From Bolinopsis microptera (lineage: Eukaryota > Ctenophora > Tentaculata > Lobata > Bolinopsidae): DNA of 64,000 nucleotides. The stretch lies in NCBI RefSeq assembly GCF_026151205.1, contig NC_087072.1:19310103-19374102 (forward strand). The letters run 5' to 3'. The translations under genes were made by a program, and so were the position numbers. The notes under the pieces were generated by a model, which saw nothing but the letters and a program-made list of their open reading frames with translations, ran no database searches and was not told the DNA's origin. Positions 8,803 through 58,762 of the stretch are shown in pieces (within the stretch, counting starts at the first letter, position 1; each line of letters starts with the position of its first letter).

Positions 8803-9088
8803 CAGTGGCGTAACGTTGCCTGTTGGCGCCCCCTGCCGAAAAGGCGCCCCCCTGTTGGCGCCCTCTCCCCTTTTGGAGCCCCTCCCTAAAATTGAACAAA
8901 TTAGGTGATTTTAAAGAATACGCCGGTAAAATCTCTAAAAAAGTGTGTATCTAGAGCAAAACACGCAGTTTTGCTAGTACTTTAGTTAAGTTTTCGAAAT
9001 TGTCCCACATTCAAACGACGATTTGGCGCCCCCTAAGACGGCGCCCCCCTGCACAGCGGGGTCAGCAGGGCCTTTCGTTACGCCACTG
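8803..9088. mobile_element. hAT-type MITE with 8-bp target duplication
   Basis: The 286 bp element has perfect terminal inverted repeats CAGTGGCGTAACG / CGTTACGCCACTG. It is flanked by the direct repeat ATTATAAC (8795-8802 and 9089-9096), the 8 bp target duplication typical of hAT transposons. Internal GGCGCCCCC blocks recur near both ends. No transposase is encoded. Confidence 0.9.
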
Positions 9089-12248: not shown

Positions 12249-12252
12249 TAAA

Positions 12253-13368: not shown

Positions 13369-16300
13369 TTATCGGCAGCATGACAACCGGCACTTGGAGG
13401 TGTGCTGACGGACTCTCGCTGATCTACGCAGCCCAGGAGGCTGGGGCAGCACTCCAGCAGGCGCTTGAGCAGGGGAAACGGGATCTGCTGCAGTGGTCAC
13501 GGAGGCTCCTGCAGCACTACCACCTGTCAAAACACCAGACGGGGCAGGTGCAGTAGCTGGTACATTAACAGAACTATCCGGTACAACGGGATCTGTATTT
13601 GCTGTTGGTATGTGGTAATCCTGATCTGGGATAACAGTGAGTTGACGACGGGTATAGTCTGTAGTCAATAATCTCTTGTTTCTCAGTATCTGGTTTCCAG
13701 CTTGCGAAAGCAGTACATATGATCTACCGTTAGCATCAGATCTTGGTGCTAGGATTTTACCTGGCTTCCAAATCTTGTCAGATAGGTTGTCTCTATAACA
13801 GACTAACTGTCCTGGAACAAAATCATCTCTCGGAACGGTATGCTGGTTGTAATGCTGTTCCATATCAATTACACGTTTCTCTAAGACACGTCTGTATCTT
13901 TTATCATTTTCAGTAATCAATAAACTTGAACATGTTGGCAATTTCGTGCGCAACTCTCTGTTAAATAATATTTTTGCGGGACTCGGCAACTCGTTAGATA
14001 TCGGAGTGTTACGATAATTTAACAAAGCTAAATGAATATCATCAGATTTCAAAATCGTGTTCTTTATCGTAGCTACATGTCTTTCAATAAAACCATTAGA
14101 TTGAGCATAACCAGCTGAGGACAACGTATGTGTAATATCATACTTTTTTAAGAAATCTTTAAACTCTTTACTGGTATATAAAGGATCGCCATCAGATCTT
14201 AGCTTTTCTGGTAAACCAAATCTCGACACAACTCGTTTCAGTTGTTGAATACAATGATAAGAAGTAGGGTTTACTGGCAACATTTCAACTTCCACATATT
14301 TCGAAAAATAATCTGTACTAAGCTGGTACTCTCTACCTTTAGCACTGAACTTGTCTACCGATATTCTCTGCCAAGCCCGTTCAGGGACACTGTCTGGTCG
14401 CAGAGGTTCCTTTTTGGGGAAGCTGCGCTTCATCAAACAAGGTTCACACTTGCGTACCATCTCATCAATGTCTTGGTTCATGTGTAACCAATACACACTT
14501 TTACGTGCCAAGCTCTTACACCTAGATTGGCCTTGATGACCAACATGTATCCTCTCTAAGAGCTCGGGACGTAACTTTCGCGGAATTATGATCCTGGTAC
14601 CAAAAAGCAGGATATCGTCGACGACAAACAAATTATCTCGCTGACTGAAATAAGACTTGGCAGGCAAGAGTCGTAGCAGCAGTCTTTGTATCCTTGGCGG
14701 TGCTTCAGCTATGGTTTGTTTGTTGACTATACTCAGCAAGGGCTTGTGATCAGTGTGTACCTGTATCTGTTTTCCGTACACATACTGGTGAAATCTTTCA
14801 CAACCAAATACAATCGATAGTAATTCCTTCTCTATTTGGACGTATCGTACTTGTACTTGTACTGGTGTGAGACTTCTCGAAGCATAAGCTACTGGCTTGC
14901 CATCTTGCATCAGGCATGTACCCAAACCATACTGACTCGCATCACATAGTAGAGTCACTTCTTTCTTTGGATCATAGAATCCTAGAACAGGCTCACTGGT
15001 GAGTATCTTCTTGATGTTGTCTAGTGCCTTGTTCTGTTCGTGTGTCCAAATAAATTCTGTATCTTTGACTAACAGGGCTCTCAGTGGTGTCGTGAGCGTG
15101 CTCATGTTGGGAATAAACTTCGCAAGGAAATTGATCATACCCAGGATCCTGTGAACTCCTGTTTTATCGGTAGGATTGGGCATATCTAGAATATCCTTAA
15201 TCTTTTCTGGATCTGGTTTTACTCCGTCAACACTGATTACACGACCCAAATATGTGACTTCCTGTAGTCCAAATTTGCACTTGGTGTCATTGAGCTTTAC
15301 TCCGGCTTCACGTGACCTTTGTAGTGCAGCCTTTAAACGGCTATCATGTTCTTCTCTCGTAGCACCATGTACTAAGATATCGTCAAATACTACCTCTACA
15401 CCTTCAAGTCTCTCGTAGACTTGCGACATTCGTTTCTGAAAGACTTCATTGGATGATTTTAATCCAAATGGAAGTCGGAGGTAGCGGAATCTTCCAATCA
15501 ACGTATTAAACGTTGTCAGATAACTAGCTTTCTCTGTTAGAGGGACTTGCCAGTATCCGTCTCGAGCATCTAACTTCGAGAACAACACTGATCCACCCAA
15601 TCTCGTCATAATCTCTTCATCTGACGGCAGCGGCGAATGTTCTCTGATAATAGCTCGGTTTAGGTCAGTAGGGTCTAAGCATACCCTTATCTGTCCGTTA
15701 GGTTTCTCGGTTACAGTCATAGAATTCACCCACTCGGTGGCTTCGTCCACCTTCTTTATCACCTTGAGCTTCACCATTCTATGCAGCTCATTCTTGACTT
15801 TATCTGCTAGTGTGAAAGGCGTTCTTCTAGGTGCATGCACTGCTGGAGTGGAGTTCTCTATTAGTTTTATATCGTAGGGCTGGCTGATACAACCAACTTG
15901 TTGGTTGCTGAAGACATCTGCAAACTCTTTGCTCAGCTCCTCGTACCTGAAAGTGTTAGTGACTTGGTCTACTACACGGTCTGAACTCTCACACGCCTGA
16001 ACAGAGGGGTATGGATTGGGAATGTACTGTTTTAACCCATTACTCTTCACCTGCTCTCTGTTCGACTCACTTTGCACCCGACACTTATTCACCCGAATCT
16101 TCTCACACTGCTCCTCACTCTTCAGTGAGCTCTCTGCACCACCCTGGTGGTGTTGTGAGTGGCTTAGTGAATGATCTATATCCTTGTGATTATCAATCTC
16201 ACATCTCTTGAATCTGTTGTGAGTTCCTGAAACCTTAATCTCTTCACTCGTGCTACCACTGTGCTTCTCTCTACTCTCACTCACAGCTGAAACTGATGTA

Positions 16301-17622: not shown

Positions 17623-17731
17623 GTTGGGATTTGGGGATTGCGGGTAGTAGAAGTGAAACCAGTACTTAGGACTAAGCTCTAAAACCTAAAAGGGATAAAA
17701 TAATAATTAGTAATATTAACATATTACAACA
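17622..17731 (-). repeat. 5' LTR (110 bp)
   Basis: Identical to the left LTR. At 110 bp it is short for Ty3/Gypsy. The minus-strand start codon of gag-pol begins on its last base (17622). Confidence 0.95.
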
Positions 17732-27511: not shown

Positions 27512-30500
27512 TCTGTGTAATAGTAGTAGATCTTGTTAACTGTATTATATCTGCATTGTTATGAAGCGAAGGTTTTTACTTGTTGATGAATCAGACGAGG
27601 TAATCCAAGCGTTCAAAAGTGGTCGGACACCATCTTCTCTACTCGATGTGGACGTGGTTAATGACAATGTAAGTGTAGTGGTTTTTGGCATTGTCCATCA
27701 CCGGATATCGTTTTGTTGGATCATTTCCAAGTTTCAACACTCTCCATCTTAATCTTCCGGATGTCAAGCTTTTAGTTGTAATGCGAGGGTAGTCATACAT
27801 GATAAACCTCCTACACTTGCGTGATACGACCCCAGCATGTCTCAAACGTGAAGACAGCAGACGACCACCTTGTTTTTATTAACGTGCTAAATCTGCAATC
27901 ATTACTATGACTTAACTCTAATTTTTATTATAAGGTTATTTTACTTATATAGACATAATTGATTCATTTTCTGAACGTTTAATGAAGTTATTAGCACCTA
28001 CATATTTCAACAGCTAATTACAATGTTGCCGCTGTTAATTAGTTAATTAGTTTACCCATCCTTCACACTACGTCACACTGCTGGCATTATACTACTACTC
28101 CTTACAATCTGACTCATTTATAACACATAATAATACAACAACTCAAGGTTTTCACAGCTGCTTGTTATTGTAGACATGTTGTCTGCGTATTTTATTACAT
28201 ACGAATATTTTTGACTGATGGGAGATCGCTTTTAAACTTTATAAACGTTATAAATTTAGATAAATATAAATTTGAAGAATGAAATCCTCTTCGCCAGAGA
28301 TATTTAAGTCAATAAAGAATAGTAGAGTTCATTTTGCATAAGCGCGCGTTACAGCAGACCATAAGTTTCTAAGTATCTGATGGTTAATGGCTATGAAATA
28401 AGCCAATAAGGACAGGGCAAAGCAAGGACAGGACGAAATCTCTAACTTTTGTTTCCGTTTTGAGGGTTCAAGTTACGGCATGGTATTGATAGCGCACAAT
28501 GGTTCATTTTAGTAATGATAATAACCGGTCTTACTGTATTACGAAAATATTAGATCACAATATCATAAATTCAAGAGAATTCTGGAGAACCTTTGTAGAT
28601 GAAATTTATAATTCAGGTAGATAGTAGAAAACAACCAGACCAAATTCGATTGATATTCTCAAATTTCCATACCTCTCATATCCCATTTCTAAGACAAAAA
28701 GTCAGGTCCACTCATTACAATCTAGCCTTTGCAACATTCACTTCACTTTCCTACAACACGCTTTCAGTAAAACAAAACAATTTCCAGAAACTCGACTGAC
28801 CCCAATATTTGTCTGTGAAAGTTAACTAACTCTACTCTCTCTCTGCAGGTGGAGTCAGCTTTAGATAACCCGACCCCTTATCACCTGAAGGAGAATCAGA
28901 GGAGGCAAATACAACAGTACATGTCCAGCCAGCTAACTCCTGCTAACCCTCAGGCTCAATCTTCCAGCTCCATGCTGTCTCCCAGTAGTGAGTCTCATCT
29001 TCTTTATTTTATTAAATACTTGATTAATAATGATGCAACATTTGCCCAACATTTCTAGTGATTCCGTTTACTATTTCCTTTTCCTGAAAAAGAGCATTTT
29101 TTCTTGTCGCAACAAACGGAATTGTTATAAATTTTGCATCAGAATCATTACAATAATGCGAGTTTAATGCGACTAATAAACGAGGATACTTTATACTGAA
29201 GAAAATATGAACAATTTATTTCACTTCTTAATGAAAAGCTCTGATATAGAGAAATGTACAATTATCATCGGAGAATAGTAATCTCCAGCTTATGAGAAAA
29301 TAACACATCCAACATAAGTTTGTCCCTTAATAACGCATCTAACATAAGTTTGTCCCTAAATAGCACATTCAAGATAGGTTTGTCTTTAAAGACAATGACG
29401 TTTTTAGGCATCCAGTTGAGAGTATTGTCTTGTCTTGGCAGCTATTATAAACTTATATTGCTAATCGATTACAGAGATAAACCGACTATCTTTTGTCATC
29501 TAACTATACATCACATCACAACAAAGAGAGTGTGTCTATAGGCTAATACCATGCTTCACGGCTAACAAACTTAACTGGGTTTCCACTGTCTAGTCACCGG
29601 TGTCTACGGAGAAGACGCGAGGAAGTTGGGTTGTTAAAAATTAGCAAATAAAAGTGAGGTCTTTGTGTACCCTTTGTGCCAAATACTAGCGTGTTTCTGC
29701 CCTTTTTCAGTGTATCTTTACATGTAGTTTGTAACATGATATTGATACAGTCTACAAAATGAAACGACCGGTTGAGTCAGACAAATGTTTCAATCATGAT
29801 ACAAAACCATGATATCATCAGTGACAACTGAGGTATAGGAACTAAAATCAAAATTACAAAGCTAAAATTTAACATAAACAATCACTCGTGAAACAATACT
29901 AGGGGTTAGATGTATGAGTCATTAGATTATAAAAGGAATTTCCGTTTATGGCGGCATTTTGTGAGGATTTCCGTCCTGGAGTTAAGTAAGTGTGGGTCAG
30001 AGGATCGAAGTAAGATTTCTAATTTCTCAGACGTGCACAGATCGCAGCTGTTCTGGCCGGCTCTGTATCCGTGTCCACGTCTGATTATTTTCCATTCGAT
30101 CCTGAATTCTAACCCACGGTCTTTGAAGGACCAGATCTTCTCCGACAGTTTGGTTCTATTTCGGTACCGCTCCAGGCGAAATGATGACGTGTGCCCGTTG
30201 TACCGGTCCTTGAATGTGCCCTCCGTCATTCCGATGTAGTGGTGCTTCTCATTTTCCGTACGGAGGGTCGCCATGTATACCACAGACTTCGATAGGCACT
30301 TTCCGTCTAGTGGGCAGGAGTTCCTGGAGCGGCAGTTGCACTGCCGTGTGGTGGGTTCCTGGGTTTCCTGGTGCTGACGAAGCAACTGCTTGTTCCGGGA
30401 TTTTATGAGGCATTCCATGTTTTTCATACAGCTGTATGAGACTTTTACACTGTTCCGGTTCAAGATCTTGTGTAGTGGATTGTCCTGAGGGAAGTGTTTC

Positions 30501-32938
30501 TCCAACAGATTGAAGAATTTCCTTCCAACATTGGTCTCCACAGTGACAGAGAAGGGGGGATTTGATACAGTCTATACCGCCGCTGCAGAATCTGCTTCTT
30601 ATTCCAACTGCTTGCGGAGTTATAAACATGTTCGCAATTTCAGGACTTTTTCTTAAGAATGTTAACTGAATGACGTAAAAGTACCAAGATTAAGTTTTAT
30701 CTGTGAATTATGACGCTTGCATACCTCTTATCAATACAATGGTTTAAAGATAAGGTTAATATAGACCCCTCCATCCTAAATTTCTGGAGATAAATTCTAA
30801 ATGTTGTATTAGTTCTGTGTGTTTGGTAACTGGATATCCTGGTGATGGGAGGCACTGGTGACGTTTACAGTTTTGTTCATCCTTGTTCCTGGTTTTGATA
30901 ACTAATTTTAATCTGTACTTGGAGTAATCATAGTTATTTTAAAGTTTGATCTCAGGCGGCTTTATTGCGTAGATTATCTCACAGAATATTACTAATTTAG
31001 TGACGCACTTTGAAGTCATAGTATAGATAAGAGGTTTCTCTGAGTTTGAGGGTTGGAAACCGCAGATAGTAGGATTTGTAAGATCATGCAGCTTACTGCT
31101 ATTGTACGGTTACTTAGCTAATATTTAATAGCCATGTGAAACGTGATTGTTGGAATGATCGAAATAGAATAATAATGAAGAAATTGCATTTAAAGGAGCG
31201 TCTAAACTGACAATTTTCAGCGCCTTTTCACATTGATCATGAAATTATTCCATTCTTGACGATTGAGAGGCCAAACTCAATAACCTTAATTTAAACGTTT
31301 TAAACTAAACATAATTCTCTCACCTCACCAAAATGACGAGCATTCGAGAGCAATTTCTGAAGAAGCCTCATTTTGATTGCACGACTCTGGTTGGCTATTA
31401 GAACTTTGTATACTACATATTATTGTATATCCCGTACTGCAGTTAAAGATGTAAAAAATCAAAAAAATTCCTCGAATAGTTTCAATTCTTGGAAATGGAA
31501 AAATTACATGAATATCAAAATATTGAATCTGATTACTGTTATTGAGGTATATTGAGTTTGGTATCCCAACTGTTGAAATTGCATACATAGGTCATAATCA
31601 GTCCTCAAGGTTACAAATTGTATCTATTTATAGGCTCGTAACACTGTTACAGTGTAGACTGTAGAGTGCTGAGTAGAGTACATGGCTGAATAATAACATA
31701 CATTATGGTCACTTATTGGTCACTCAATTTCATGCGGCCCCTGAAATACACACAGCTTGTACTTCATGATGGACGTTGGTACTTTGGTGACAAAATCATC
31801 GAAATTTTGTATTATAATTGCATCATATTATAAAGTCATTGAATTGTTGATATATTTCGATTTCGTATTGAGTTGTGATAAATAAATTTCTGATGACTTG
31901 CTTTCCCAAGTGCGTCAGCAGGCTTTTTACTACGCAAATCTCGGTAATGATACAATTTTTCGTAGCGTTTTAAAGATAGTAAGGGTCATTTAACTTGCCG
32001 TGGTAAGATCTACTGAATCCTCGTATTAAATAACTCTACTCAGAAACAGATTACAGTGGTTATTTCGCCTCCACATATCCAGATCACGCTATGATATCAG
32101 TAGATATGATAACTATAGAGATATGATCACAGTTCCTACCCTTTATTATATATTTATTATATATAATAAAGGAGGATATATATATCCTCCTAACCCCCTT
32201 TCCTCAGGACTCTCCCCCAAGTCGATGACACCAGACACCCCACTCTCTCCCGACGATCTGAACATGAACTTTGGTAACTTTGAGATAGACTCCATCCTTG
32301 AGACTATATCCTCCCATGATAACGAGGATCAGCAGATGAATATTGAGATACCGATAAACTCCCTGCCGTCCTCCTACACATTTAGCCAGACAGTGCCCAC
32401 TCACCCTCCCCCCGGCTCCATGTTCAACTACTTCCCCCACTCTCCCAGCACCTCCAACTTCAATGTCATGCCCGGTCAGACTTCAGCTGTCATGTCGTGT
32501 CCGGCCCACCTGGGCCTTCAGAAACCAGAGAACTACGGTGGTCAGCTCGATATGAAACAGTACACTAAGGACCGCCAAAAGAAGGACAATCACAATGCGA
32601 TCGAGAGGAGGCGGAGGTTTAACATCAATGATAGGATAAAGGAGTTAGGGACACTCCTACCCAAACAGGATCCGGAAATGAGGCCTAATAAAGGAACCAT
32701 CCTCAAGTCCTCGGTCGATTACATACAGTCACTGCAGGGTGAACAGTTGCAATGGCAGCGGGAACGCGAGGCCATGACCGCGCGCATCAGCCAACTGGAG
32801 AATTGTCTGCGTAAGCACGGCATCAGCGATAAAGAGTGGGTCGCTCCTTCAGAATACAATGAGATCACGGCACACCACCATCAAACTTTCTCCATCAAAA
32901 TCAAGCAGGAACCAGACCAATCGTTTTACAGTGATTAA
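27512..32938 (+). CDS. MiT/TFE-family bHLH leucine-zipper transcription factor (MITF/TFEB/TFE3-like)
   Basis: Coding exons are 27561-27668 (exon from 27512), 28849-28987 and 32208-32938, joined in phases 0 and 1 with GT-AG borders, giving 325 residues. Exon 2 has VESALDNPTPYHL and RRQIQQYMSSQL, the conserved MiT N-terminal block. The last exon has an acidic segment (FEIDSILETISSHDNED) at the place of the MITF activation helix. The basic region DNHNAIERRRR and helix-loop-helix lie at about residues 205-261. A zipper (LQGEQLQ ... LENCLRKHGI) and a terminal IKQE sumoylation site, as in MITF, follow. The family binds E-boxes/M-boxes as dimers and controls lysosome and pigment-cell genes. The N-terminus lacks the Rag-GTPase-binding SRxxLRxQLMRE-type motif. 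The whole DNA-binding domain is in one exon. AATAAA lies at 33320-33325. Confidence 0.93.
29301..29385. repeat. Diverged tandem repeat, about 31 bp x 3
   Basis: Three copies of a unit like AACATAAGTTTGTCCCTTAATA lie in the last intron of the MiT/TFE gene. Confidence 0.7.
29927..30580 (-). pseudogene. Penelope-like retroelement fragment with complete GIY-YIG endonuclease
   Basis: The minus frame opens after a TAG near 30575 and reads NPPFSVTVETNVGRKFFNLL, the linker after the RT of Penelope-like elements. Then come KVSYSCMKNM, a Cys cluster (CNCRSRNSCP), and the nuclease core: VVY near residue 88, YIG near residue 102, Arg in KDRYNGH, the catalytic Glu in CTSEKLEIL and Asn in LLNSRTE, ending CRHKRKFLL. 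These elements use the domain to nick target DNA. The RT itself is missing and the upstream frame is stopped, so the copy is 5'-truncated. It lies antisense in the last intron of the MiT/TFE gene. The overlapping 126-codon minus frame is a shadow. Confidence 0.88.
30581..32140. other. Intron sequence without feature
   Basis: AT-rich remainder of the last MiT/TFE intron; small frames lack motifs. Confidence 0.4.
32141..32191. promoter_or_regulatory. Two back-to-back hairpins at the last 3' splice site of the MiT/TFE gene
   Basis: CTTTATTATATA (32141-32152) pairs with TATATAATAAAG (32160-32171). It is followed directly by the perfect 22 bp palindrome AGGAGGATATA/TATATCCTCCT (32170-32191). The acceptor AG is at 32206-32207, so these structures occupy the usual branch-point zone. 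A role in splicing is only an inference. Confidence 0.5.
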
Positions 32939-35801: not shown

Positions 35802-38800
35802 CTATTTGAAGAGATGAACACAATTGGCAAACTCTACGAAGCTGATGTATCCGTCGTTGTCAAAATCAACCTGAAATAAAGATAAGGAATATACTGAAAT
35901 AAATAGGAATATACTGCAATCAGATGGCCTGAGCAATAGCTGGCTATGTTTATTTCAAAAATACAAAATATGTAACGACCAAGTTACAATTTGAATATCA
36001 GTTAGGGCTACAAACAAAGGAATTAAGAGTGAAATACTTGATTCCAATAGGTTACGGTGCCCAAATTGCTTTAACTATACCTCAATCATAATTTTGTCCA
36101 GTTCAGAGGCTGATACTTTTTTGTTTCCGTAGAGCTTTAACGCTTTCTTCAGCTCAGTCTTGCTTATTCTCTTGTTACCTGTAATATGTTACAATGACAT
36201 CACTACCACTAGGAGGTGCACCATAAAAATAAACTTGCTCGGATTTTAAAAATTTTTGTACCATTGTTTTCTAGAGACTGTGAGAATTTTCACAATACCA
36301 AATTTGTTTTACCTTTTTGGAAAGATCAGTGAGTTTTGCCTAGGTGCCATATATGGCACCTAGGCAAAACTCACTGATCTTTCCAAAAATATATTTGATG
36401 GTGCGCGGCTTTTGGAGCAAAATTAGCTGTAAAAGTCGCGTAATTTGACCAAATTTGACCAAATTCGTTGATTTTTGATTTTTGTCGTATTATTTGGATA
36501 TATCTTCAGTTCCTTGAATGAGATCATTCTGAAAATTGGTGACGACCTTCCAATAGGGCTTTTACAACTGTCCGAAAAATTTGGTGGATATCGGAGTTGA
36601 TATAGTGATCAAAATGGGGCAAAATACGCTGCTTTTAGCTGTAACATAATGTTTGATGGTTGGATATGCATTATGCTTTAAACTTTTCGGACACATTTCT
36701 TGTAAGTCTATGAGTAAGCTTACCAATTTTTGTTGCAATCGGAGGTCGGGAAGAATACTTAATATCTATTTGTTTGAAGAAAATTGTGCTGGCCGAAATT
36801 AGCGCTAAAAAACCATCCCACAGTCGGCACGCGCGGCTCACTGTCGATGGCGCACTACCTACTACCACATTAGCCCTGTAAAATGTGTTGGCATCGCAAA
36901 ATATCTTTTTTTTTCACTTGATATCGAAAACATCGATGCGATAATCTTTAAAAAAATCGAAATAAAAAAGTATTAAACCAACCGTCTTTATCCATGACTT
37001 CGAAGACCTTTTGTAGGTTCTGTGACTCCCTGCTCTGTTTGTGCATCCTGATCATGATAGTGAGCATCTCGGAGAAGTTTATAGCTCCGTCACCGTCCTG
37101 GTCCACCTGGAGGGAGACGAGGGACATTAGACCACATTGGAAGTTACACATGAGCATTGACGAGGCACTAATTAAGCCTCCTTCGTTTTGTCACAGTGGA
37201 CTTAGTCAGTGTGTACGTTATGTGTGCATTGTATAGGTTATAATTATATAAAGTTAAAACACTCAACCAGAAAATAGTTGAGTAAAACTGAAGTTTTACA
37301 AACAAAACATCGCTTCTCCCCGCCTGCCCTCTCCTCCTCCCCCCAAGTTTTAATTCTTAATACACTACCTCGTTCATCATGTCCTTTAATTCGTCATCAG
37401 GCATGCTAATACCAAGCTCGTGGAAACCAAGTCTTAGATCAGTGAAACTGAGTCTACCGTCCTTGTTCCGGTCTATGGCGGAGAATATGGCTGACACGTG
37501 GCCGTGGAGGTGCTCTCGGTCTACCATCTTGAGGACAGGTGCTTCTAATGAGGCTAGGTGGGACGGCTAGTGGTTATTGGTAGGTACTGATTGGTTACTG
37601 ATGGTGATAACCAATCCAACTGTGCAAAATGGAAATATTTGATTTTCACGTCCCCAAAATTGAACTAAGAACACATTTGACATTGTTATCGCGTTTACTT
37701 ACAGCTAATTGTTTGGTTTAAGATTAATTTATGATGAAATTAGATAATTTTATAGTCCATTTTTTAGCGATTAACAAGGCCATCCAGAAGGGGGCCGGGC
37801 CCTTTATAGGTAGTGACGTAAGAAATGGCCATGCAAATTTCCGGAGCGGGGCTGCGACTAAGCAAGAGCAACAACCACGAAATACCAGGACGGTGAAACA
37901 GAGCTGACAAATTAAACTTAAAGCAGTAATGTTCGCATGGTTTATTTACTAGTAAGTTAGCCCTACAGAACGTAAAATGAGTCTAACAGTAGTATAACTA
38001 GGACAATGAGATGATCACTCCTTTGTGGGGACGAGACTAAGCAACTAAGAAACTATCACCTGCTATTGTTCAACTTATAGTTTAATTACAACATATTAAC
38101 ACAGTCAGACCTCTATTATTACATAACATACGCGGAGTAAAACCAGCTATGAATCTTACTAACAACTCGATACTATTGGTCCGCGTATCATGGAGACAAC
38201 GGACCAGTTCAGAAAGGATGGGAATTGAAGGACACCAAAAAATCTCCATATATGATACAGCTATTTTTATGCCTATTGTCTGTCATCTCTAGCATTGAAT
38301 TATAATATTTTGAACTAAAAACAACCCGCTGAAGCCTGAACAAATTCTGATGCGTCTAAATGAAACAAATATATATAAAGACTCAAAGAGGGTATAAGGG
38401 TTGACGGTCGTGCTTGCCATCACTGTGATGTATTTCGTACTGTTAAAATATCAAATTAAGCGGCATTCATATTGAAGCTTCAAAGCTTTATGGGTAAAAT
38501 TAAATGGGTGCACCAGATTAGGGCTCCAAAAAACTCCGTTGAACAACATTAACAGAAAAACGAATAAAAGAATTGATTGGTAGGCCGTATAAATATAACC
38601 ATTTAAACCATGAATATATAAAGTTTCGTCAATTGTAGATCTTAAAATTGGGATAACTGGTACAACGTACTATACTAAACTATAGAACGAAGTACGAACC
38701 ATATTGCTATAGTTGTATGCAGTGCGAGCTGTATTATAGTATTATAACTCCCGTAAGGCGTATTACTAGTGTGTACCTCATGGAAAATATAGTGTAGCTA

Positions 38801-41800
38801 GTAGCCACAGTTTAGTGGACGACAAAACGCCTTTTTCTCTCTGACTATCTATCTCTTTGAATGGTAATAACCTGCTGACACATCCATCAGAAGGGAACAT
38901 TTCAGCTACAGATCTATCAGAGCATTTAAACAGTAGGCTCCAGTGAGCTTCCTATCAGTTGCCAAACATTCGTCTTCTTATTTCATGGAAACTTGCCTTT
39001 AATATTAGGCTAACAATGAGTTACAAATAGCTCTGTCACACTTCAAACAAAGTCATTGTTAACGACCAGTTTCCTACCATTTTAAACGATATATGACTAG
39101 TGACTAGTGACTACACGGACGCTTTTCTAAATGAGCAAATGAATGAAAGAAAGCTCTTATCCGACACTAGCGTCCCTTGTTAAAGCCCAATCAGATTGAT
39201 AAAATTTAAAAAATTTAAAAATGCCTCATGAAAACAGAAAAAACTTGAATTAAGAGTAAGTACAGACTACAGGTACACTCACTGACTAGGCCTGGAAATT
39301 GAACTGGGATGTTTAATGAGACTACTGCTGCTTTGAGACAGAACATTAGTATCAGGTTCCGCCCTTGATCCACCATTATACCGATCTACAAAACACTGAG
39401 CTAGTGTATTGAGTACCAGAACTCTACAATCTGCAATTGTATCACAATCAAAATACCCCTATTTATATAATATACCTATATATTATAGGCGATCGTAAAT
39501 GATATAAATAGTATAAATAGTTTACAAATCGGGAGAAATCGTCATATAAGAGTCAAGTAATTAGTAATTTGTGGAAATCGCCGCTGACTCAGAAATAGGA
39601 TTGTAGGCCACTGGCCAATGCTAGCTTAGATTAGGAGGGGGATCTCTGCAGCCTTTCCATCTGAACACATGGTGACCTGGCCAATTATTGTAGACAGATT
39701 ATAGAGTGTCATTATAACCCATGTAATCGGGAACTGCAAAGAGGGGCCGCGAAAGAATACGATTGATAAAAACAGCTGATGCCACGAAGGCCCAATGCAT
39801 CAAGATTTCAGTCAATCTGTCTTTATGCGCTTATACAATTATATTATACTAGCCGGGTTGAATAGACCAACATAAAGTCAGCGTCAGTAATTTAGATGGA
39901 GCAGCTCGAGACTTGCAACTTAATGACTCAAGTTGAGTTATTAGATCTAGCCACTGGATTTGAGATGAGGAGACTGTTTGGTTGTTTATACTATAGACAT
40001 TGAATACAATTTCTCTGGAGGTTCACTGAATCTTTCCATTGGATCCATACCAACACGTTCAATAACGGATGAAACGCAGTAGACAAATATCGAAAATATT
40101 CTACTGCGAATTCAATTGTGTGAAAATTTACTTTTTTCAGACTTGGATGAATAGTGACTGAAAGTGAACTCAATGCTCCAAATTAGATGAATGATTTAGC
40201 GTTTTGATGCTGCACAAACGGAAGTCCGCCGACGAAATTACAAATCTTCCAGATTAGATCTTGCGAAGTATCAGAAGAATATTCTGAACAAATCAAATTA
40301 CAATCTCAATCGCGATGCTGAAAGCAAAACAAAATTTCCCATGGTAAAAAATATATAACAAAGGCTATCCAAATGTAAGCACAATGATCAGACGCAGAAG
40401 AAAAGTGAAATATCTACAGCCCTATAGCAAACGACTGGTTACAAATGTTCATTGTGTAAGAAGAATGTTTGGCTGAGCAGAAAACAATAGTTTCATCAGT
40501 CCACCCTACCAACATCCAACAACACACAATTACACACAATAACACATAATTCACCCCACAATGAAATATGTCCAGGACAAGATATTGTGTCTGGGTTCAT
40601 TATAAGCTGCAAAGATCGTATTGGGAGCAGCTGCCCAAGAATATAAAGCGACAGAATAATGATATCTATGACCTATGTCTGGTATTATATATAATTTTGG
40701 CTGTCATGGACTGCACGCAAACTGTTCTCTTGCACATGCCTTATTAGTCATTACATAAGTTATCGATCCATGATCTCTAAAAGGTTGGAGCATTGCTGAG
40801 GACTGAGGAGCAATGAGCATTACTTATGATCAGTGCTGCAATTTCCGGAGAATGGTTAATATCTCCATGATGAATGATTCCAAACAAGGTTGTTAAATTT
40901 GACGTATTTAACAACCTTGATTCCAAATAAATATTCCTCAGAATCGCTCCATACATTTTATTTTACATCCAAGGTTTAAAATGATGAAGAAGGAAATTTT
41001 TTAATTATGAACAGCAACAAATTAAACATTAATGGAGCTGCAGAGTCGTATACCAGAGTTATATCACGACAGAACGGCCATTCTATAGTAATAAATTAAT
41101 ATCAGTTGACATTCAAATTTATTGAGGAGCATACTGAACAGGAGATGCCGTGAAAATAACAATTTTACACAATGTTATAGTAATAGGTGTCCGTAAATTA
41201 TATTTGTGCTATTCGAAAGATTTTCAAATGTCCAGGACCTGAAACGAATATATGAAAAGAGCGTAGAAACTTTAATAAAGCAGGCTAAATCTCGCATACA
41301 TATTACATAATAATATGGTCTATATTGCTTAAATTTTATCCTAGACAACAGCATAACTCGAATATGGTCCTCACACATTGCAGGTCTCTGCAGGGCTGCT
41401 CCTCTACTCTATAAGTACATGTCATTTTTCACATTTAGATACTATAATCTCATTGTTGATGCAAACTATGAGCAAAGATATATTAGCAGTTCATTTCTCC
41501 GATGTTTAAGTTTAATGATAAGGTGGTGCTTTTAAGCTTTTTGAATATTATTTTGCAATATTCAGTTGCAATCATGAAACAAAAAATACGATTTCTACTT
41601 TTGCAATTCCGTATTAGTATTACTATTAACCGCGTAACTATATATGCAACTAAACCAGAATATGTATAAGGGAGATTAAAACTAACAAACTATTTCCACA
41701 ACTAATAGTAATATTAATAGTAATATGGAACATCAAATGCGTAAGGGGCAATAGCAAGAGCAAGGGCTGACAATCTGTATGGACAAAAAATTGAACTAAC

Positions 41801-44800
41801 GATAAGATATATTACCAGAACCAATTATACCATACGATTTAATCTTAATCTATCACAGTGCTGGCAAGCACGACCGTTGCATTTATTGTGGGTATACTAT
41901 GTTCCCCATTTACTATTATACCCCCTTTACTATTATACCCCCTTTGGTACACGTTACAAGCCTCTTTTGTGCACGCGAAGCGTGCACTCCGGCCGGAGGC
42001 GGCGGCCGAAGGCCGCCGCCTCCGGCAGGAGTTTTCCAGGCATTAAGACCCATCGGAAGTCGTTAAGCAGAATTATTTTTAGTTCAAAACATTCTAATTT
42101 GATGTCAAAGATGACAGGAATAAAAAATAGTTATGTTGAGATTTTTAAGAAATTTGCATAAAATACTCGCCAGCACTGTTATACGAAATTCGGTAAAAAA
42201 CCCAAAATCGACATATTCAGGTGCCTTAAAAACCATGTTAAAATTGAGTAAGAGATCTGAAATTTTTCAGGGCGTCTAGACGTTGATCAAATCGACTGCA
42301 AAAAAAGTTTCAGGTTTCAGGAGTATCGGGAAATGGGTTTTCTAGAACCCCTGTTTTACGACAGATTGTCGTGATATATATATATATACATACATTTGAC
42401 CAAAACCCATAATCATGGGTAGAGTGGACCGCTGCCAGTGTCTCTCTTTCCCAAACAAAAGGAAATGATATTAATTTGATTGACCGTTCTCAAATGCAAA
42501 ATGATACCGAGAATGAAATCGGTCGCTCGCTTTTCCCATTCATTCACGGCTTAAGAATTGTAATAAGTTTCGATTGATTAGGGACATCAATCAGATGCTG
42601 TAAAAATCTCTTTGGGTTGCGTTCGGGTCGATACTTAGTATTTCGGGGTAAGGGTGGTAGTTATTACTTATTGAATTAGCTGAAGTTTATTGAATCTTTA
42701 TTGCCGAGTACAGCTGCCTTTGGGTAGTTCTTCGTAATCTATTACAATTGTAAATGAATGGGAAAAGCGAGCGACCGATTTCATTCTCGGTATCATTTTG
42801 CATTTGAGAACGGTCAATCAAATTAATATCATTTCCTTTTGTTTGGGAAAGAGAGACACTGGCAGCGGTCCACTCTACCCATGATTATGGGTTTTGGTCA
42901 AATATCATCTCTTTTTGATTATAATGTCAGGGTACTTTATAAAGTCGAAATATAGACTGATATCTTCATTAATAAGTTAATAAGGAGGAAGTTTCAACAA
43001 TTTCGAAATTTTTCCTTTAAAAACATTTCCTTGTGTTTAGGTAAGTATATCGGTCGATCACTGACTGAATATGCCACTTAATACTCATTCAAGTTGGCAT
43101 TAAATTCATATATAATGACATTAAACTGTCGTGGCAAAGCAGAATTTGTTGGAAATCACGAATGAGCAAAATTCTCACTTTTCGCACGTGCAAACTTTGA
43201 GCGGACGTCGCGTGCGCATCCAATATTGAATCGCCGTAAATTTTTGCGTGTAATTGTTTTATATATAGCTTGATAAGCATGCAAAGTTTCAAAGTATTTC
43301 AAGAAGAACTGTAATCACAACGGCACTCTAAAGTTGACAGAAAATGACGAAAACAGCAATTTTCAGTGATTTTAGCAATTTTCTATCAATTTGGGCGTGT
43401 CCCCACGTGTGCAACTTTTCGATTTTCAACTTTAAAACTAGCCTAATGCACAATTTATACCTATAGAAAGCAGAACTGAGCTCCACAACCCAAGGCATGG
43501 CCCAACACCAGAGAATACTAAATCGCAAAATTGACGTTTTTATAAAATAATTCTTCAAAAAAGCACAAACTTCAATCAAGAATATCTTTATGAAGGAGCA
43601 AGCTAGAAAAACTTTCCGGTAGATTTTCAGAATGCTTGAACAATTATCTAAGATAAAAAATCCCTCAGATTTTGAATTCAATTACTTTTTAATGGTGTAA
43701 AATCATTTTTAAAAGTTATTACTTTGTCAAAAATCAAGTTTTAAAAACGGTTAACTTGATGACGTCATCAAGGGGTGTTCATGACGTCAAATAATTTGTT
43801 TATACAATGTAAACTAAAGTGTAAACAATTATTTTCAAGACCTGTGGTCGGAAATTGCTATATCTTTTATACTTTTGAATCTATGGACAATTAAAAACAG
43901 GCTACATTTGACTGGCAAAGCGTCTATCCCTGAATATCACAATGCTGGCAAGCATTACCGTCGCCCTTATATTCACAACACTATTTACCCCCTATACGAT
44001 TATATCCCCTTTATTGTTTTCCAGGCATTAAGACTCATCGAAAGTAGTTCAGCAGGTACATTTAAGTTCAAAACATTCTAATTCAATGTTGAAGATGACA
44101 GGAATAAGAAATAGTTGTATGGAGGTTTTTAAGAAATTTGCGCAAAATACGCGCCAGCATGTTATACGAAATTAGGTAAAAAACCCAAAATCGCCATATT
44201 CAGGTGCCTTAAAAACCATGTTAAAATTGAGTTAGAGATCTGAAACTTTGCAGGGCGTCTAGACCTTGTCCAAATCGACTGTAAAAAAAATGTCATGTTT
44301 CAGGAGTATCGGGAAGTGGGTTTTCTGGAACCCCTGTTTTACAACAGATTGTCGTGAAGATATATATGTATGTATAGACGCTTTTTGCAGTCAATTGTAG
44401 CCTACATTTAAGTGTCCGTAGATTCAAAAGTATAAACGATACAGTCATTTCGAACCACAGGTTTTAAAGATAATTGTTTAAGCTTTAGTTTACATTGTAT
44501 TGAAAAATAATTTAACGTCATCATCATCACTTGATGACGTCATCAAGTTAAGTGTTTTTAAAACTTGACTTTTGACAAAGTAACAACTTTTTAAATCGAT
44601 TTTACACTATTAAGGAGTAATTTTATTCAAAATCTGAGGACATTTTCATCTTAGATAATTGTTCAAGCATTCCGAAAATCTACCGGAATAGTTTCCTACC
44701 TTGCTCCTTCATAAAGATATTTGCTATTGAAGTTAGTGCTTTTTTGAAGAATAATTTTATAAAAACACAAAAGTTGTGAATTAGTATTCTCTGGTGTTGG

Positions 44801-47800
44801 GCCATCCCTTGGGTTGTGGAGCTCAATTTTGCTTCTTAAAGGTGTAAATTGTGTTATAGGCTAGTTTTAAAGTTAAAAATCGAAAAGTTGCACACGTGGG
44901 GACACGCCCAAATTCATTTAAAATCGCTAAAATCGCTAAAAATTTTGATTTTCACGATTTTTATCAACTTTGGAGTCCCGCTGTGATCCAAGTTCTTTTT
45001 GAAATCTTCTGAAACTTTGCATGCTTATCAAACTATATATTAAATACCACTATGCAAAAATTTACGGTGATTCAATATTGTATGCGCACGCGACGTCCGC
45101 TCAAAGTTTGCACGTGCGAAAGGTGAGAAATTTGCTCATTCGTGATTTCGAATATATTCTGCTTTCCACGATATTTAAATGGCATTATATATGAATTTAA
45201 TGCCAACTTGAATGAGTAAAAAGTGCCATATTCAGTCGGTTATCGACAGAAATACCTAACTAAACACAAGGAAACGTTTTCAAAGGCAGAATTTCGAAAT
45301 CGTCGAAATTACCTCCTTGTTAATGAAGTTTCGACTAGCTGTGTAAATTATCCTGACATTATAATCAAAAAGAGATGATATTTGACCAAAACCCATAATC
45401 ATGGGTAGAGTGTACCGCTGCCAGTGTCTCTCTTTTCCAAACAAAAGGAAATGATATTAATTTGAGGAACAGTCCGCTAATGCAAATTGATACCGAGAAT
45501 GAAATCGGTCGCTCGCTTTTTCCATTCGATCACGGCTTACGAATTGTAATAAAGCTTATTGATTTGAAAAAGCGAGCGACCGATTTCATTCTCGGTATCA
45601 ATTTGCATTAGCGGACTGTTCCTCAAATTAATATCATTTCCTTTTGTTTGGAAAAGAGAGACACTGGCAGCGGTACACTCTACCCATGATTATGGGTTTT
45701 GGTCAAATATGTATATACTTATATAGGTATGTATGTATCACGACAATCTATCGTAAAACAGGGGTTCTAGAAAACCCATTTCCCGATGATCCTGAGACCT
45801 GAAACTTTTTTTGCAGTCGATTTGGTCAACGTCTAGACGCTCTGAAAAATTTCAGATCTCTAACTCGATTTTAACATGGTTATTAAGGCTCCTGAATATG
45901 GCGATTTTGGGTTTTTTACCGAATTTCGTATAACAGTGCTGGCGAGTATTTTATGTAAATTTCTTAAAAATCTCAACATAACTATTTTTTATTCCTGTCA
46001 TCTTTGACATCAAATTAGAATGTTTTGAACTAAAATTAAATCTGCTGAACGACTTCCGATGAGTCTTAATGCCTGAAAAACTCCTGCCGGAGGCGGCGGC
46101 CTTCGGCCGCCTCCTCCGGCCGGAGTGCACGCTTCGCGTGCACGAAAGAGGCTTGCAACGTGTACCAAAGGGGGTATAATAGTAAAGGGGGTATAATAGT
46201 AAAGGGGGTACATAGTATACCCACAATAAATGCACCGGTCGTGCTTGCCAGCACTGTGATATTCAGGGATAGACGCTTTGCCAGTCAATTGTAGCCTGTA
46301 TTTAATTGTCCATAGATTCAAAAGTATAAAAGATAAAGCCATTTCCGACCACAGGTCTTGCAAATAATTGTTTACACTTTAGTTTACATTGTATAAAAAA
46401 ATTATTTGACGTCATAAACACCCCTTGATGACGTCATCAAGTTAACCGTTTTTAAAACTTGATTTTTGACAAAGTAATAACTTTTAAAATTAATTTTAAA
46501 CCATTAAGGAGTAATTTTATTCAAAATCTGAGGAGATCTTCACCTTAGATAATTGTTCAAGCATTCTGAAAATCTACCGGAAAGTTTTTCTAGCTTGCTC
46601 CTTCATAAAGATATTCGTCATTGAAGTTTGTGCTTTTTTGAAGAATTATTTTATAAAAACGTCAATTTTGCGATTTAGTATTCTCTGGTGTTGGGCCATG
46701 CCTTGAGTTGAGGAGCTCAGTTCTGCTTCCTATAGGTATAAATTGTGCATTAGGCTAGTTTTGAAGTTGAAAATCGAAAAGTTGCACACGTGGGGACACG
46801 CCCAAATTGATAGAAAATTGCTAAAATCACTGAAAATTGCTGTTTTCGTCATTTTCTGTCAACTTTAGAGTGCCGTTGTGATTACAGTTCTTCTTGAAAT
46901 ACTTTGAAACTTTGCATGCTTATCAAGCTATATATAAAACAATTACACGAAAAAATTTACGGCTATTCAATATTGGATGCGCACGCAACGTCCGCTCAAA
47001 GTTTACACGTGCGAAAGGTGAGAATTTTGCTCATTCGTGATTTCCAACAAATTCTGCTTTGCCACGACAGTTTAATGTCATTATATATGAATTTAATGCC
47101 AACTTGAATGAGTATTAGGTGGCATATTCAGTCAGTGATCGACCGATATGCTTACCTAAACACAAGGAAATGTTTTTAAAGGAAAATTTCGAAATCGTTG
47201 AAACTTCCTCCTTATTAATTAATGAAGATATCAGTTTATATTTCGACTTTATAAAGTACCCTGACATTATAATCAAAAAGAGATGATATTTTACCAAAAC
47301 CCATATTCATGGGTAGAGTGGACCGCTGCCAGTGTCTCTCTTTCCCAAACAAAAGGAAATGATATTAATTTGATTGACCGTTCTCAAATGCAAAATGTTA
47401 CCGAGAATGAAATCGGTCGCTCGCTTTTCCCATTCATTTACAATTGTAATAGATTAAGAAGATCTACCCAAAGGCAGCTGTACTCGGCAATAAAGATTCA
47501 ATAAACTTCAGCTAATTCAATAAGCAATAACTACTACCCTTACCCCGAAATACTAGGTATCGATCCGAACGCAACCCAAAGAGATTTTTACAGCATCTGA
47601 CTGATGTAATCAATCGAAATTTATTACAATTCGTAAGCCGTGAATGAATGGAAAAAGCGAGCGACCGATTTCATTCTCGGTATCATTTTGCATTTGAGAA
47701 CGGTCAATCAAATTAATATCATTTCCTTTTGTTTGGGAAAGAGAGACACTGGCAGCGGTCCACTCTACCCATGAATATGGGTTTTGGTAAAATAGTTTAA

Positions 47801-50800: not shown

Positions 50801-53084
50801 CAATAAAACACAAAATAGTGTATCTATGACCTATGTCTGGTATTATATATAATTTTTGCTGTCATGGACTGCACGCAAACTGTTCTCACTTCTCTTGCAC
50901 ATGCCTTATTAGTCATTACATAAGCTATCGATCCATGATCTCTAAAAGGTTGGAGCATTGCTGAGGACTGAGGAGCAATGAGCATTACTTATGATCAGTG
51001 CTGCAATTTCAGGAGAACGATTAATATCTCCAGGATGAATGATTCCAAATAACTATACTTCAAAATCGCTCCATACATTTTCTTTTACATCCAAAGTTTA
51101 AAATGATGAAGAAGGAAATTTTCAGGATTGACTTTTAATTATGAACAGCAACAAATTAAAAATTAATGGAGCTGCAGAGTCGTATACCAGAGTTAAATCA
51201 CGACAGAAGGGCCATTCTATAGTAATAAATTAATATCAGTTGACATTCAAATTTATTGAGGAGCATACTGAACAGGAGATGCCGTGAAAATAACTTTGTT
51301 AAAGTTCAATTAATTAACGTAATGACTATAATAGTGACTCATAATTCGTACGTATGCTACCTCATGGCACCGAAATGGTAGCATTCCATTAAATGGTCAA
51401 ATAGGGGCCTTTTTTACAGAGCAACCAACATGTAAACCTGAATAATATTTATAGAGTACATTATTATTAAATTGTTATCAATTTGCTGTACAACGTCACT
51501 GCTCATTATACAGAGACCACGTTAAAGGTACCATGACGAACAATTTTTGCTTAAATGCAACCGACGCGCTTATTTGAGCAATTTTCCCTTCTCCGCTTAT
51601 AATTGTGCAGCCTTTTCATAAATTGAGCCTCTCTCAGGTTGAATTTGATCCGCTCAAATTAAGGCCGATAAGGTAACGAGTTCAAGGGCAAAAACAGAAA
51701 AAAAATTGCAGTAAAACAGATAGTGATGTTATGGACAACGTCCTCCGACCGTGGCCTTATGACACGGAAGTAATCCACGTGATTATAATGTGTTGATAAC
51801 TATCGTCCTACAGCAGCACTCAGCAGTGATCTCATTTTACCACGTGCAGATAGGCGGGTATCTCATTATACCACGTGCAATTGCATGAAATAGGTGGGTA
51901 TCTCGTTGTACCAAGTGCAAATCGGTGGCGGACTTTGGGTTATGAAACTGATCCGGCCTCCAGAGGGATCATATCATGCTAGCTCCTAGCTGCTCTACTC
52001 GTAGATCCAATAAGGGACGGGATTCGGGAACCCCTACTCGGGGAGTTTTCGTATCATGAGAGCATGAGACGTGGGACGAATCGGCGTCATATAGAAATAA
52101 AATATTGATTTTGATAAATATGGTAATTAAAATATTGAAATACGCCGAGGAAAATACTCAATATCAACGACACGTCGTAAATTCAATGCAAAATTCCTTT
52201 TAACTAATTAACTGCAACACTATTACGTGTGAAGTCGTTATATGAAAGTCTGAACGTTCGGAGATTAGACATTTTTACTTCTCGAAATTCTTACCATAAA
52301 CAATAAAGCAGTTCTATAATTTATAATTTACAATTTACTTTTAGGTTTGATGGTTAGGGTTGTACGTCAAGGGTAACCGTAATGTATTATAAATTTTCAT
52401 CAAGATGCAAGAGTCCGTCTGCGTTTTTAAGTAGGTACGCAAATAGGCGAGTAATTGTACCACTTGAATTAATATGCTGGTACAACTTTTCATACGTATT
52501 CTTCCGAAACTCATTGCGAAATAATTATAGTACCACCCTATGACGCCCCTTTCTTTACCCATTTAACTCTGAATATAAATTATAAACATGCCAATATATA
52601 GTCAGTTTTAAATATCAACTCACGTTCTGAACGATAACGGACAGTTCCTCCTTGTCAATCTCATATCCGTTCTTAGTGAAGGTTCTGTAAAACTCGTCAA
52701 CTGTGATCAATCCGTTCTCATCGTGGTCAAACAGCTGCGGGATAAGAAACGATTCAAATATCGCCGAATATTGTCAAATATCATCAAATCGTTAAAAATC
52801 GTATGTTGTGGATAATTACAATATAAATCAATGAACGATATACGCGGTAATGATAATCGTTGATAATTCATCCTTTTGTAGCTATGGAAATTTGTTGAGC
52901 TGTCAATTTTATCGAAATATACGATTAATTAAGGAGACCTAATCTGACATGACCTCGCCTTAGCGACCTTATAAACATGCCACCACTGGGTGTGTTCAGT
53001 GTAACATCCATGTGACTAGTTTATAAAACTCACCCCCATAGCAATATGAGCGTCGGTCTCGACCTCTTCGTAAGTCTTTGCCAT
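35802..53084 (-). CDS. Calmodulin/troponin C-like EF-hand calcium-binding protein
   Basis: Six exons on the minus strand: 53084-53034, 52734-52624, 37527-37369, 37106-36983, 36178-36081 and 35870-35802. All have GT-AG borders and matching phases, giving 203 residues and a TAG stop. Calcium loops are DHDENGLITVDE (exon 2), DRNKDGRLSFTD (exon 3), DQDGDGAINFSE (exon 4), DKDGNKRISKTE (across exons 4-5) and DFDNDGYISFVE (exon 6). The last four form a standard four-hand calmodulin-like body; the first is an extra N-terminal hand without its usual partner. The spacing from loop 1 to loop 2 is 54 residues instead of about 36. A further exon may hide in the 15.1 kb intron 2, or exon 3, which begins with ATG, may also be a start. 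The partner and tissue role are unknown. Confidence 0.9.
36315..36390. repeat. 76-bp perfect palindrome without loop
   Basis: Every base from 36315 to 36352 pairs with 36390 to 36353; the centre is CCATATATGG and the arms contain GATCAGTGAGTTTTGCC. It lies in intron 4 of the EF-hand gene, inside a longer repeat-like stretch (about 36210-36900). Confidence 0.97.
37528..40662. other. Start of the 15-kb intron 2 of the EF-hand gene
   Basis: Mostly unannotatable AT-rich DNA. 38235-38432 is a decayed minus-strand copy of module A (it ends GGTCGTGCTTGCCATCACTG). No EF-hand exon was found. Confidence 0.45.
40663..41160 (+). repeat. Copy 1 of a ~490-bp direct repeat
   Basis: It begins TATCTATGACCTATGTCTGG and ends GAGATGCCGTGAAAATAAC, matching 50821-51294 closely in the same orientation. 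It differs by small indels and by the 35 bp insertion at 40885-40919. There is no coding potential. Confidence 0.92.
40885..40919. mobile_element. 35-bp micro-MITE (hAT-like) with 8-bp target duplication
   Basis: The insert is a hairpin, CAAGGTTGTTAAAT / ATTTAACAACCTTG around TTGACGT. It is flanked by ATTCCAAA at 40877-40884 and 40920-40927. The sister repeat has a single ATTCCAAA at 51042-51049 and no insert, so filled and empty sites are both visible. The 8 bp duplication points to hAT transposase. Confidence 0.85.
41855..42385 (+). mobile_element. Module A copy (MITE-like core with GC hairpins)
   Basis: The core at 41855-42181 has inverted ends ACAGTGCTGGC, and its middle holds palindromes TGCACGCGAAGCGTGCA and CTCCGGCCGGAG followed by an 18-bp-scale GGCGGCGGCC-GAA-GGCCGCCGCC hairpin (about 41967-42025). 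Overlapping short frames are repeat artefacts shared by all copies. Confidence 0.75.
42393..42906. mobile_element. Hairpin module C, long form
   Basis: The arms (about 150 bp) are inverted copies bounded by TTTGACCAAAACCCATAATC; the loop is about 210 bp. The same long form, reversed, is at 47286-47797. Confidence 0.85.
42907..43925 (-). mobile_element. Module B copy
   Basis: About 1 kb, closest to the inverted copy at 46262-47285. It holds the palindromic CRE-like TTGATGACGTCATCAAG and ends toward module A with TGGCAAAGCGTCTA. Confidence 0.8.
43930..45715 (+). mobile_element. Complete A-B-C composite repeat
   Basis: Module A 43930-44366, B 44373-45378, C short hairpin 45378-45712. The order and sequence match the separate copy at 56950-58762, so A-B-C is one mobile unit. 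The GC hairpins of other module A copies are missing here. It may have inserted into the older array around it. Confidence 0.75.
45720..47797. mobile_element. Composite repeat with inverted A module (A-minus, B-plus, C long)
   Basis: Module A lies reversed at 45720-46258, B forward at 46262-47285 and long C at 47286-47797. The reverse complement gives the order C-B-A seen from 42393 on, so the two halves form a multi-kb inverted repeat around the element at 43930-45715. Confidence 0.75.
47798..49310. other. Intron DNA with a GC-rich patch
   Basis: 48380-48760 is GC-richer than its surroundings (CCCGGGGCGGGG, GCCCGCGCGGG) and holds a 156-codon minus frame that starts at TTG and has no recognisable domain. 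No exon could be assigned. Confidence 0.35.
49311..49640 (+). mobile_element. Second TACTAG/CAGACAGA-type repeat
   Basis: It begins TACTAGAAAGCCCGTGGTAA and ends near CAGACAGAAACATC followed by TTATAGTAGAGA, the same arrangement as 25793-26395. Class unknown. Confidence 0.4.
50083..50225. repeat. 21/22-bp minisatellite, about seven copies
   Basis: Units of AGCCTCTGAGAGGGTAGTAGT, some with one extra A, sit in intron 2 of the EF-hand gene. Confidence 0.95.
50270..50765. repeat. Inverted/direct short repeat pair around CGCCATATTTT
   Basis: 50278-50355 (GACGGTTTTC ... TTTCGCCATATTTTTGGACCGCCAAAATTTCGGTCGTCG) is repeated with few changes at 50670-50740. The stretch between them is AT-rich with no exon. 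Confidence 0.55.
50821..51294 (+). repeat. Copy 2 of the ~490-bp direct repeat (empty site)
   Basis: Matches 40663-41160 but has a single ATTCCAAA at 51042-51049 instead of the 35 bp insert. Confidence 0.92.
51770..51930. promoter_or_regulatory. Cluster of CACGTG E-boxes in a short diverged tandem repeat
   Basis: TCTCATTTTACCACGTGCA is followed by two diverged copies (TCTCATTATACCACGTGCAA and TCTCGTTGTACCAAGTGCAA). A further CCACGTGAT lies at about 51777-51785. CACGTG is the core site of MiT/TFE and related bHLH-zipper factors. Any function is inference. Confidence 0.4.
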
Positions 53085-56949: not shown

Positions 56950-58762
56950 ATCAATATCACAATGCTGGCAAGCATGACCGTCGCCCTTATATTCACAATA
57001 CTATTTACCCCCTTTACTATTTACCCCCTTTACTATTTACCCACCTTTACTATTTACCCCCTTTACTATTTACCCCCTTTACTATTTACCCCCCTTACTG
57101 CTCACCCCCATTCTAATTCAATGTTAAAGATGACAGGAATGAAAAATAGTTATGTGGAGGTTTTTAAGAAATTTGCGCAAAATACGCGCCAGCATGTTAT
57201 ACGAAATTAGGTAAAAAACCCAAAATCGCCATATTCAGGTGCCTTAAAAACCATGTTAAAATTGAGTTAGAGATTTGAAACTTTGCAGGGCGTCTAGATG
57301 TTGACCAAATCGACTGTAAAAAAAGTTTCAAGTTTCAGGAGTATTGGGAAGTGGGTTTTCTGGAACCCCTGTTTTACAACAGATTGTCGTGAAGTATATA
57401 TATGTATATATATATAGACGCTTTGACAGTCAGTTGGAGCCTACATTCAAGTATCTGTAGATTCAAAAGTATAAAAGATACAGTCATTTCGAACCATAGG
57501 TCTTGAAGATAATCGTTTATACTTTAGTTTACATTATATCAAAAAATAATTTAACGTCATCATCACTACTTGATGACGTCATCAAATTAAGCGTTTTTAA
57601 ATCTTGATTTTTGACAAAATAACAACTTTTCAAATCAATTTAACACCATTAAGGAGTAATTTTATTCAAAATCTGAGGAAATTTTTATCTTAGATAATTG
57701 TTCAGGCATTCTAAAAATCTACCGGAAAATTATCCTACCTTGCTCCTTCATAAAGATATTTACTATTGAAGTTAGTGCTTTTTTGAAGAATAATTTTATA
57801 AAAACACAAAAGTTGTGAATTAGTATTCTCTGGTGTTGGGCCATCTCTTGGGTGGTGGAGCTCAATTTTGCTTCCTAAAGGTATAAATTGTGTTATAGGC
57901 TAGTTTTAAAGTTGAAAATCGAAAAGTTGCACACGTGGGGACACGCCCAAATTGATAGAAAATTGCTAAAATCACTGAAAATTGCTGTTTTCACCATTTT
58001 TATCAACTTTGGAGTCCCGTTGTGATCCAAGTTCTATATGAAATCTTCTGAAACTTTGCATGCTTATTAAACTATATATAGAATACTGCTATGCAAAACT
58101 TTACGGTGATTTGATATTGGATGCGCACGCAACGTCCGCTCAAAGTTTGCAAAAAGTGAGAACTTCACTCTCTTTATTTCGATTAGATTTAGTTCCTGCT
58201 TTAACAGTAACATGACAGTTAAATGACATTATATTTGAGTTTAATGCCAACTTGAATGATTATATAGTTGCATATTTAATCAGTGATCGACAGATATGTT
58301 TACCTAAACACAAGGAAATGTTTTTAAAGGAAAAATTTCGAAATTGTTGAAACTTCCTCCTTATTAATGAAGATATCAGTTTATATTTCGACTTTATAAA
58401 ATACTCTGACATTACAATCAAAAAGAGATGATATTTGACCAAAACCCATAATCATGGGTAGAGTGGACCGCTGCCAGTGTCTCTCTTTCCAAACAAAAGG
58501 AAATGATATTAATTTGACTGACCGTTTTCAAATGCAAATTGATACCGAGAATGAAATCGGTCGCTCGCTTTTCCCATTCACTCACGGCTTAAGAATTGTA
58601 ATAAAGCTTATTGAATAGGAAAAGCGAGCGACCGATTTCATTCTCGGTATCAATTTGCATTTGAAAACGGTCAGTCAAATTAATATCATTTCCTTTTGTT
58701 TGGAAAGAGAGACACTGGCAGCGGTCCACTCTACCCATGATTATGGGTTTTGGTCAAATTTC
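56950..58762 (+). mobile_element. Isolated A-B-C composite repeat
   Basis: Module A (about 56950-57410; its GC hairpins are replaced by repeats of CCCCCTTTACTATTTA, 57006-57100), B (57416-58430) and the short hairpin C (58430-58762, arms of about 150 bp around a ~40 bp loop). As the only isolated full copy it defines the unit that is rearranged at 41.8-47.8 kb. Confidence 0.75.

Follow-up and report, generated by a model that had tools for sequence, protein, structure and literature searches.

By gene content, the window (the whole 64-kb stretch of DNA analysed here) looks like animal genome: it carries a bHLH protein, a Ty3/gypsy-type retrotransposon at 12901-17731 and a gamma-butyrobetaine-hydroxylase-like gene represented by two nearby frames. 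The retrotransposon has an open frame of 1438 aa between identical 110-bp repeats and reads CTTAT on both sides, flanks that suggest a probably very young insertion. Another frame, at 29927-30571, had no Pfam match; judged by eye, we take it to resemble Penelope-like elements in their GIY-YIG nuclease part. Searches of the window for RNA families and tRNAs found none. An inverted repeat at 9501-12249 has arms of ~830 bp, 99.5% alike, around ~1.1 kb, and a nested family of direct and inverted repeats occurs in several copies that are ~78-99% alike (41850-47800, 56950-58760 and 3590-4225). A perfect palindrome of 76 bp at 36314-36389 has neither a loop nor a flanking direct repeat and may be an element or an assembly artefact. 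A G+C-rich hairpin of 35 bp (16/3/16) lies at 41992-42026, with paralogues at 46081-46113 and about 4091-4102; it occurs in two paralogues and is missing in the third, where a CTCC repeat stands at the joint and the absence reads as a slippage deletion.

The structure studied here is a different, 35-bp hairpin, which interrupts one of the two copies of a ~490-bp direct repeat (Table 1). Pairwise alignment of the two copies gave 440 identical and 15 different positions among 455 ungapped columns, with gaps of 43 bp, 7 bp and 12 bp and a further 1 bp at the alignment edge. The 43-bp gap consists of the 35-bp hairpin plus a second ATTCCAAA, both extra in copy A; copy B has one ATTCCAAA and no insert, that is, the empty site without duplication that is looked for in MITEs. 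The 7-bp and 12-bp indels are accompanied by a TTCTC repeat and a TT repeat, respectively. A sequence-only reading had placed the hairpin between ATTCCAAA duplicates in one repeat copy and had described the sister copy as empty, which coordinates and alignment bear out to the base. As for the ~490-bp repeat itself, no target duplicates of at least 6 bp were found near its edges.

Table 1. Coordinates of the hairpin insertion, the two repeat copies and a second hAT-like element in the window.
Feature	Position	Strand	Remark
Filled copy A of the ~490-bp direct repeat	40663..41160	+	alignment to copy B
Left target-site duplicate ATTCCAAA	40877..40884	+	10 bp TGATTCCAAA if 40875-40876 counted
Left terminal inverted repeat CAAGGTTGTTAAAT, 14 bp	40885..40898	+	
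7-bp centre (loop) TTGACGT	40899..40905	+	
Right terminal inverted repeat	40906..40919	-	exact reverse complement of left
Right target-site duplicate ATTCCAAA	40920..40927	+	
Empty copy B of the ~490-bp direct repeat	50821..51294	+	alignment to copy A
Single ATTCCAAA, the unoccupied site in copy B	51042..51049	+	
286-bp hAT-like nonautonomous element	8803..9088	+	ends CAGTGGCGTAACG, 8-bp duplicate ATTATAAC

The hairpin (40885-40919) is a perfect 14/7/14 structure whose arms pair at 14 of 14 bp without mismatch, as expected of the inverted repeats of a hAT element; written as a search pattern, its end pair is CAAGGTTGTTAAAT...ATTTAACAACCTTG. When the hairpin strand was folded as DNA, its stability stood at z = -5.2, and none of 200 shuffles was as stable. 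How long is the flanking duplicate? The two bases before the left ATTCCAAA are TG, which is also how the hairpin ends, so that the direct repeat around it is 10 bp long (TGATTCCAAA) when these two bases are counted. The earlier claim that the insertion, its ends and an 8-bp duplication are all visible was confirmed, with this correction to the length. On sequence alone the duplicate may measure 8-10 bp, and it narrows to 8 bp only on the assumption that the element ends are the symmetric ones: a duplicate of 9 or 10 bp leaves an element of 34 or 33 bp in which end symmetry is lost, and matching ends are obtained only at 8 bp. An insertion with target duplication is well supported, with the qualification that, in a comparison of two copies, precise loss in B and insertion in A after the copies split would look alike.

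Assuming independent bases, the number of such structures expected in 64 kb is ~6e-7 (5.9e-7), for a definition that was set after the case had been seen (arms of at least 14 bp, loops of at most 40 bp, exact 8-bp flanking repeats). Two comparisons within the window set the hairpin apart. Among its nine exact hairpins (arm at least 11 bp, loop at most 40 bp), 40885-40919 is the single one with a flanking direct repeat longer than 4 bp. Likewise, the 35-bp insert is the only one of nine indel rows between window repeats that combines a direct repeat longer than 4 bp with inverted ends, the rows being indels of at least 12 bp taken from BLAST alignments of at least 70% identity, where at least two pairs represent one event each, seen in two copies. 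A scan of the window for inverted repeats with 8-bp duplicates returned 13 rows, of which 2 were retained; the other 11 were dropped because the "duplicate" was self-complementary inside a long inverted repeat. In the shuffle control, one of 10 shuffles gave one hit. The same scan at 9, 10, 6, 5 and 4 bp gave 0, 7, 29, 6 and 98 rows, with inspection limited to the first 20 rows per length; all seven 10-bp rows fall in inverted or tandem repeats.

At the 8-bp reading, ATTCCAAA fits nTnnnnAn, as expected of a hAT duplication, and the hairpin ends start with CAAGG, in agreement with the hAT end pattern YARNG. A hAT-style scan of the window yielded three candidates, namely the 35-bp hairpin, the element at 8803-9088 and a third, trivial one that falls within a long inverted repeat (control: one of 20 shuffles with one hit). 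The ends of the 8803-9088 element look hAT-like to us, its 8-bp duplicate also reads nTnnnnAn, and at 286 bp it has the appearance of an ordinary hAT-like element. It likely records past hAT-type transposition in this genome, by a family that differs from that of the 35-bp element. The pattern nTnnnnAn is the reported target of Hermes (PMC10368747, PMC2803484; these and the other papers cited are drawn on from excerpts). The hairpin is best read as a hAT-type insertion.

What is the origin of the hairpin? From the hairpin, the flanking duplicates and the empty sister site, which are all observed directly, we infer insertion by a transposase and the superfamily to which it belonged. Probably, the hairpin is a tiny terminal-inverted-repeat element, whole or in remains, that was inserted by a cut-and-paste transposase, most likely of the hAT type. 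A transposase supplied from elsewhere would have made a staggered 8-bp cut at ATTCCAAA in copy A, and the two 14-bp arms would be the element's two ends, with almost nothing between them. We suggest, tentatively, that the element arrived already in its short form. It is almost as likely that a longer element collapsed in place; an element shrunken in this way would leave the same picture as a short insertion. Short-form arrival is placed slightly ahead because collapse needs both breakpoints within 7 bp and both arms left perfect. Rather more doubtful is the idea that a hAT end folded back via a 7-nt loop and that the resulting 35-bp unit was itself inserted by a transposase. This would account for both arms being identical and, if true, would set the lower size limit of hAT transposition far below the measured 100-200 bp per end.

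Several other routes could lead to a hairpin between direct repeats. An insertion by a transposase of another superfamily with duplicates of 8-10 bp (Mutator-like, P, Merlin or Novosib type; the duplicates of the last three lie within this range) is quite unlikely. The direct repeat of 10 bp, obtained with the two preceding bases, would suit such an enzyme, given that Mutator elements duplicate 9-10 bp and hAT elements 5, 6 or 8 bp (PMC6245586). However, a duplicate of 9 or 10 bp breaks the symmetry of ends that match only at 8 bp, the window has a second 8-bp hAT-like element (8803-9088), and its scan gave no 9-bp rows and 10-bp rows only within inverted or tandem repeats. An origin without any transposase is unlikely: a staggered break of ~8-10 bp would have been filled and joined around fold-back filler, by polymerase-theta type or patch repair, leaving a hairpin between duplicated flanks. 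Fold-back synthesis would account for perfect arms with a small loop, the hairpin is known from one copy only, and the two other indels between copies A and B (7 bp with TTCTC, 12 bp with TT) resemble slippage or repair. Yet flanking sequence would be expected as one arm, whereas the arms begin exactly at the duplicate and no exact arm match within 2 kb exceeds chance, the longest being 9 bp, a length equalled by 45% of 500 shuffled arms. A small point for repair is a gapped likeness to the arm, CAAGGTTTAAAAT, at 40970-40982, 50 bp downstream of the insert; the likeness is one base better in the filled copy, because copy B reads CAAAGTTTAAAAT where A reads CAAGGTTTAAAAT. Within 100 bp, 6% of the 300 shuffled arms scored at least as high, as did 3% of 58 other places; the shares rose to 27% and 22%, respectively, within 500 bp and to more than half within 2 kb. 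We thus regard this likeness as borderline, weakly above chance at 100 bp and not in the wider flanks, and it left our weighing of the repair route unchanged.

Loss in copy B only, in which a hairpin old in the repeat was removed by slipped replication between the flanking repeats, is highly improbable as an origin of the present arrangement. Slippage acts well on a hairpin that is flanked by 10-bp direct repeats, and the G+C-rich hairpin of the window offers a parallel: two paralogues have it, and in a third a 4-bp repeat marks the joint where it is missing. In that case, however, the second repeat sits inside the arm, unlike in the 35-bp insert. Moreover, loss could account for the empty site but not for the exact 8-bp duplicates abutting the hairpin, so that an earlier insertion would still be required. 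A sequencing or assembly artefact, or chance, is hardly credible: the 76-bp palindrome without loop could be a chimera, but an artefact is not expected to create an exact 8-bp duplicate for which a paralogue has the matching empty site, and the expectation of ~6e-7 speaks against chance.

Does the hairpin occur elsewhere? The 64-kb window yielded no second copy: arm matches with at most 3 mismatches numbered 19 (both arms included) against 15.2 expected, and viral contigs scanned with 14-bp and then 12-bp arms (gap 0-30) gave 0 and 0. A scan of prokaryotes with 12-bp arms returned one locus, in Desulfosporosinus (L001), which we took as unrelated: the hairpin there exceeds ours in length, with arms of 18 bp by eye, and no direct repeat was seen beside it. 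A 10-bp match to the hairpin end at 1029 was set aside as isolated, 0.27 matches of this 10-mer being expected by chance. In the material searched, neither a transposase nor a full-length relative was found. In the open-licence literature, the titles and abstract starts among the matches listed mentioned no hAT element this small, and a search with the first 13 bases of the hairpin end retrieved no paper. The palindrome had been called mobile and hAT-like on first reading; the insertion with its duplication stands and hAT-like is the best fit, while neither mobility nor a size near the smallest that a transposase could move, as that reading also proposed, follows from the single copy known. 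Since the window and the viral contigs hold no second copy and the prokaryote hairpin is unrelated, mobility is deduced from one insertion. The present finding is modest: a single insertion whose sister site is empty.

Could 35 bp of DNA transpose? The end sequence needed is 200 and 150 bp in Tol2, ~100 bp per end in Tag1 and ~200 bp in Ac and Hermes (PMC10368747), and a total of 35 bp falls short of the ~100-200 bp per end of studied hAT elements. This requirement is not strict, because some Ds1 elements move even though they lack the usual subterminal repeats (PMC3260210). Ds1, a maize hAT element, has little in common with its parent beyond the 11-bp ends, and the copies that transpose include some without AAACGG repeats; it is, however, ~400 bp long as against 35 bp here (PMC3260210). 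When 0-37 bp separated the abutting ends of Hermes circles, no integration was detected in flies, and circles with at least 80 bp integrated well, whereas in vitro integration occurred at all spacings tried (PMC2803484); this spacing is an analogy only, because it lies outside the element ends. For bacterial cut-and-paste transposons, the minimum cited is 64-70 bp (PMC3464196).

The excised elements (IESs) of Paramecium show length peaks at 26-28 bp and then from ~45 bp, with a "forbidden" peak between them (PMC3464196). In the model of its authors, ends 26-30 bp apart touch directly and elements of more than 44 bp loop, while DNA of the depleted class between is too long for its ends to meet and not long enough to form a loop (PMC3464196). 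The 35-bp length falls in this gap. IESs of 26-30 bp are at least partly transposon-derived, consist of nearly bare ends, are processed by a domesticated transposase and are described as decaying after insertion; unlike the 35-bp element, they are removed during development, by an enzyme of the piggyBac type, and lengths of ~30-44 bp are depleted among IESs (PMC3464196). A 35-bp unit that had moved in this form would be a natural test of the minimal DNA for a hAT transposase, and of joining ends ~12 nm apart with no loop between them. Should the element have collapsed instead, it would be a well-marked example of shrinkage to bare ends.

With hAT MITEs the 35-bp element has in common terminal inverted repeats, an 8-bp nTnnnnAn duplicate and no coding capacity. 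It differs from them in having no subterminal sequence and one known copy, and in its length: MITEs are given as 50-800 bp (PMC6245586) and ten viral MITEs measure 116-422 bp (PMC6004678). Pieces so short fall under the 50-bp lower bound for MITEs and may be overlooked (PMC6245586). hAT reactions also leave short end-repeat-related pieces at the junctions of hobo and Hermes episomes, where they are ascribed to resolution of terminal hairpins; the hobo pieces stood at the circle junctions of 3 of 38 sequenced episomes and are not inserted elements (PMC2803484). Very short hairpins that are thought to be mobile are known as mitochondrial double-hairpin elements and palindromic repeats, which are G+C-rich and belong to organelle DNA, a setting unlike that of the 35-bp element (PMC10085805).
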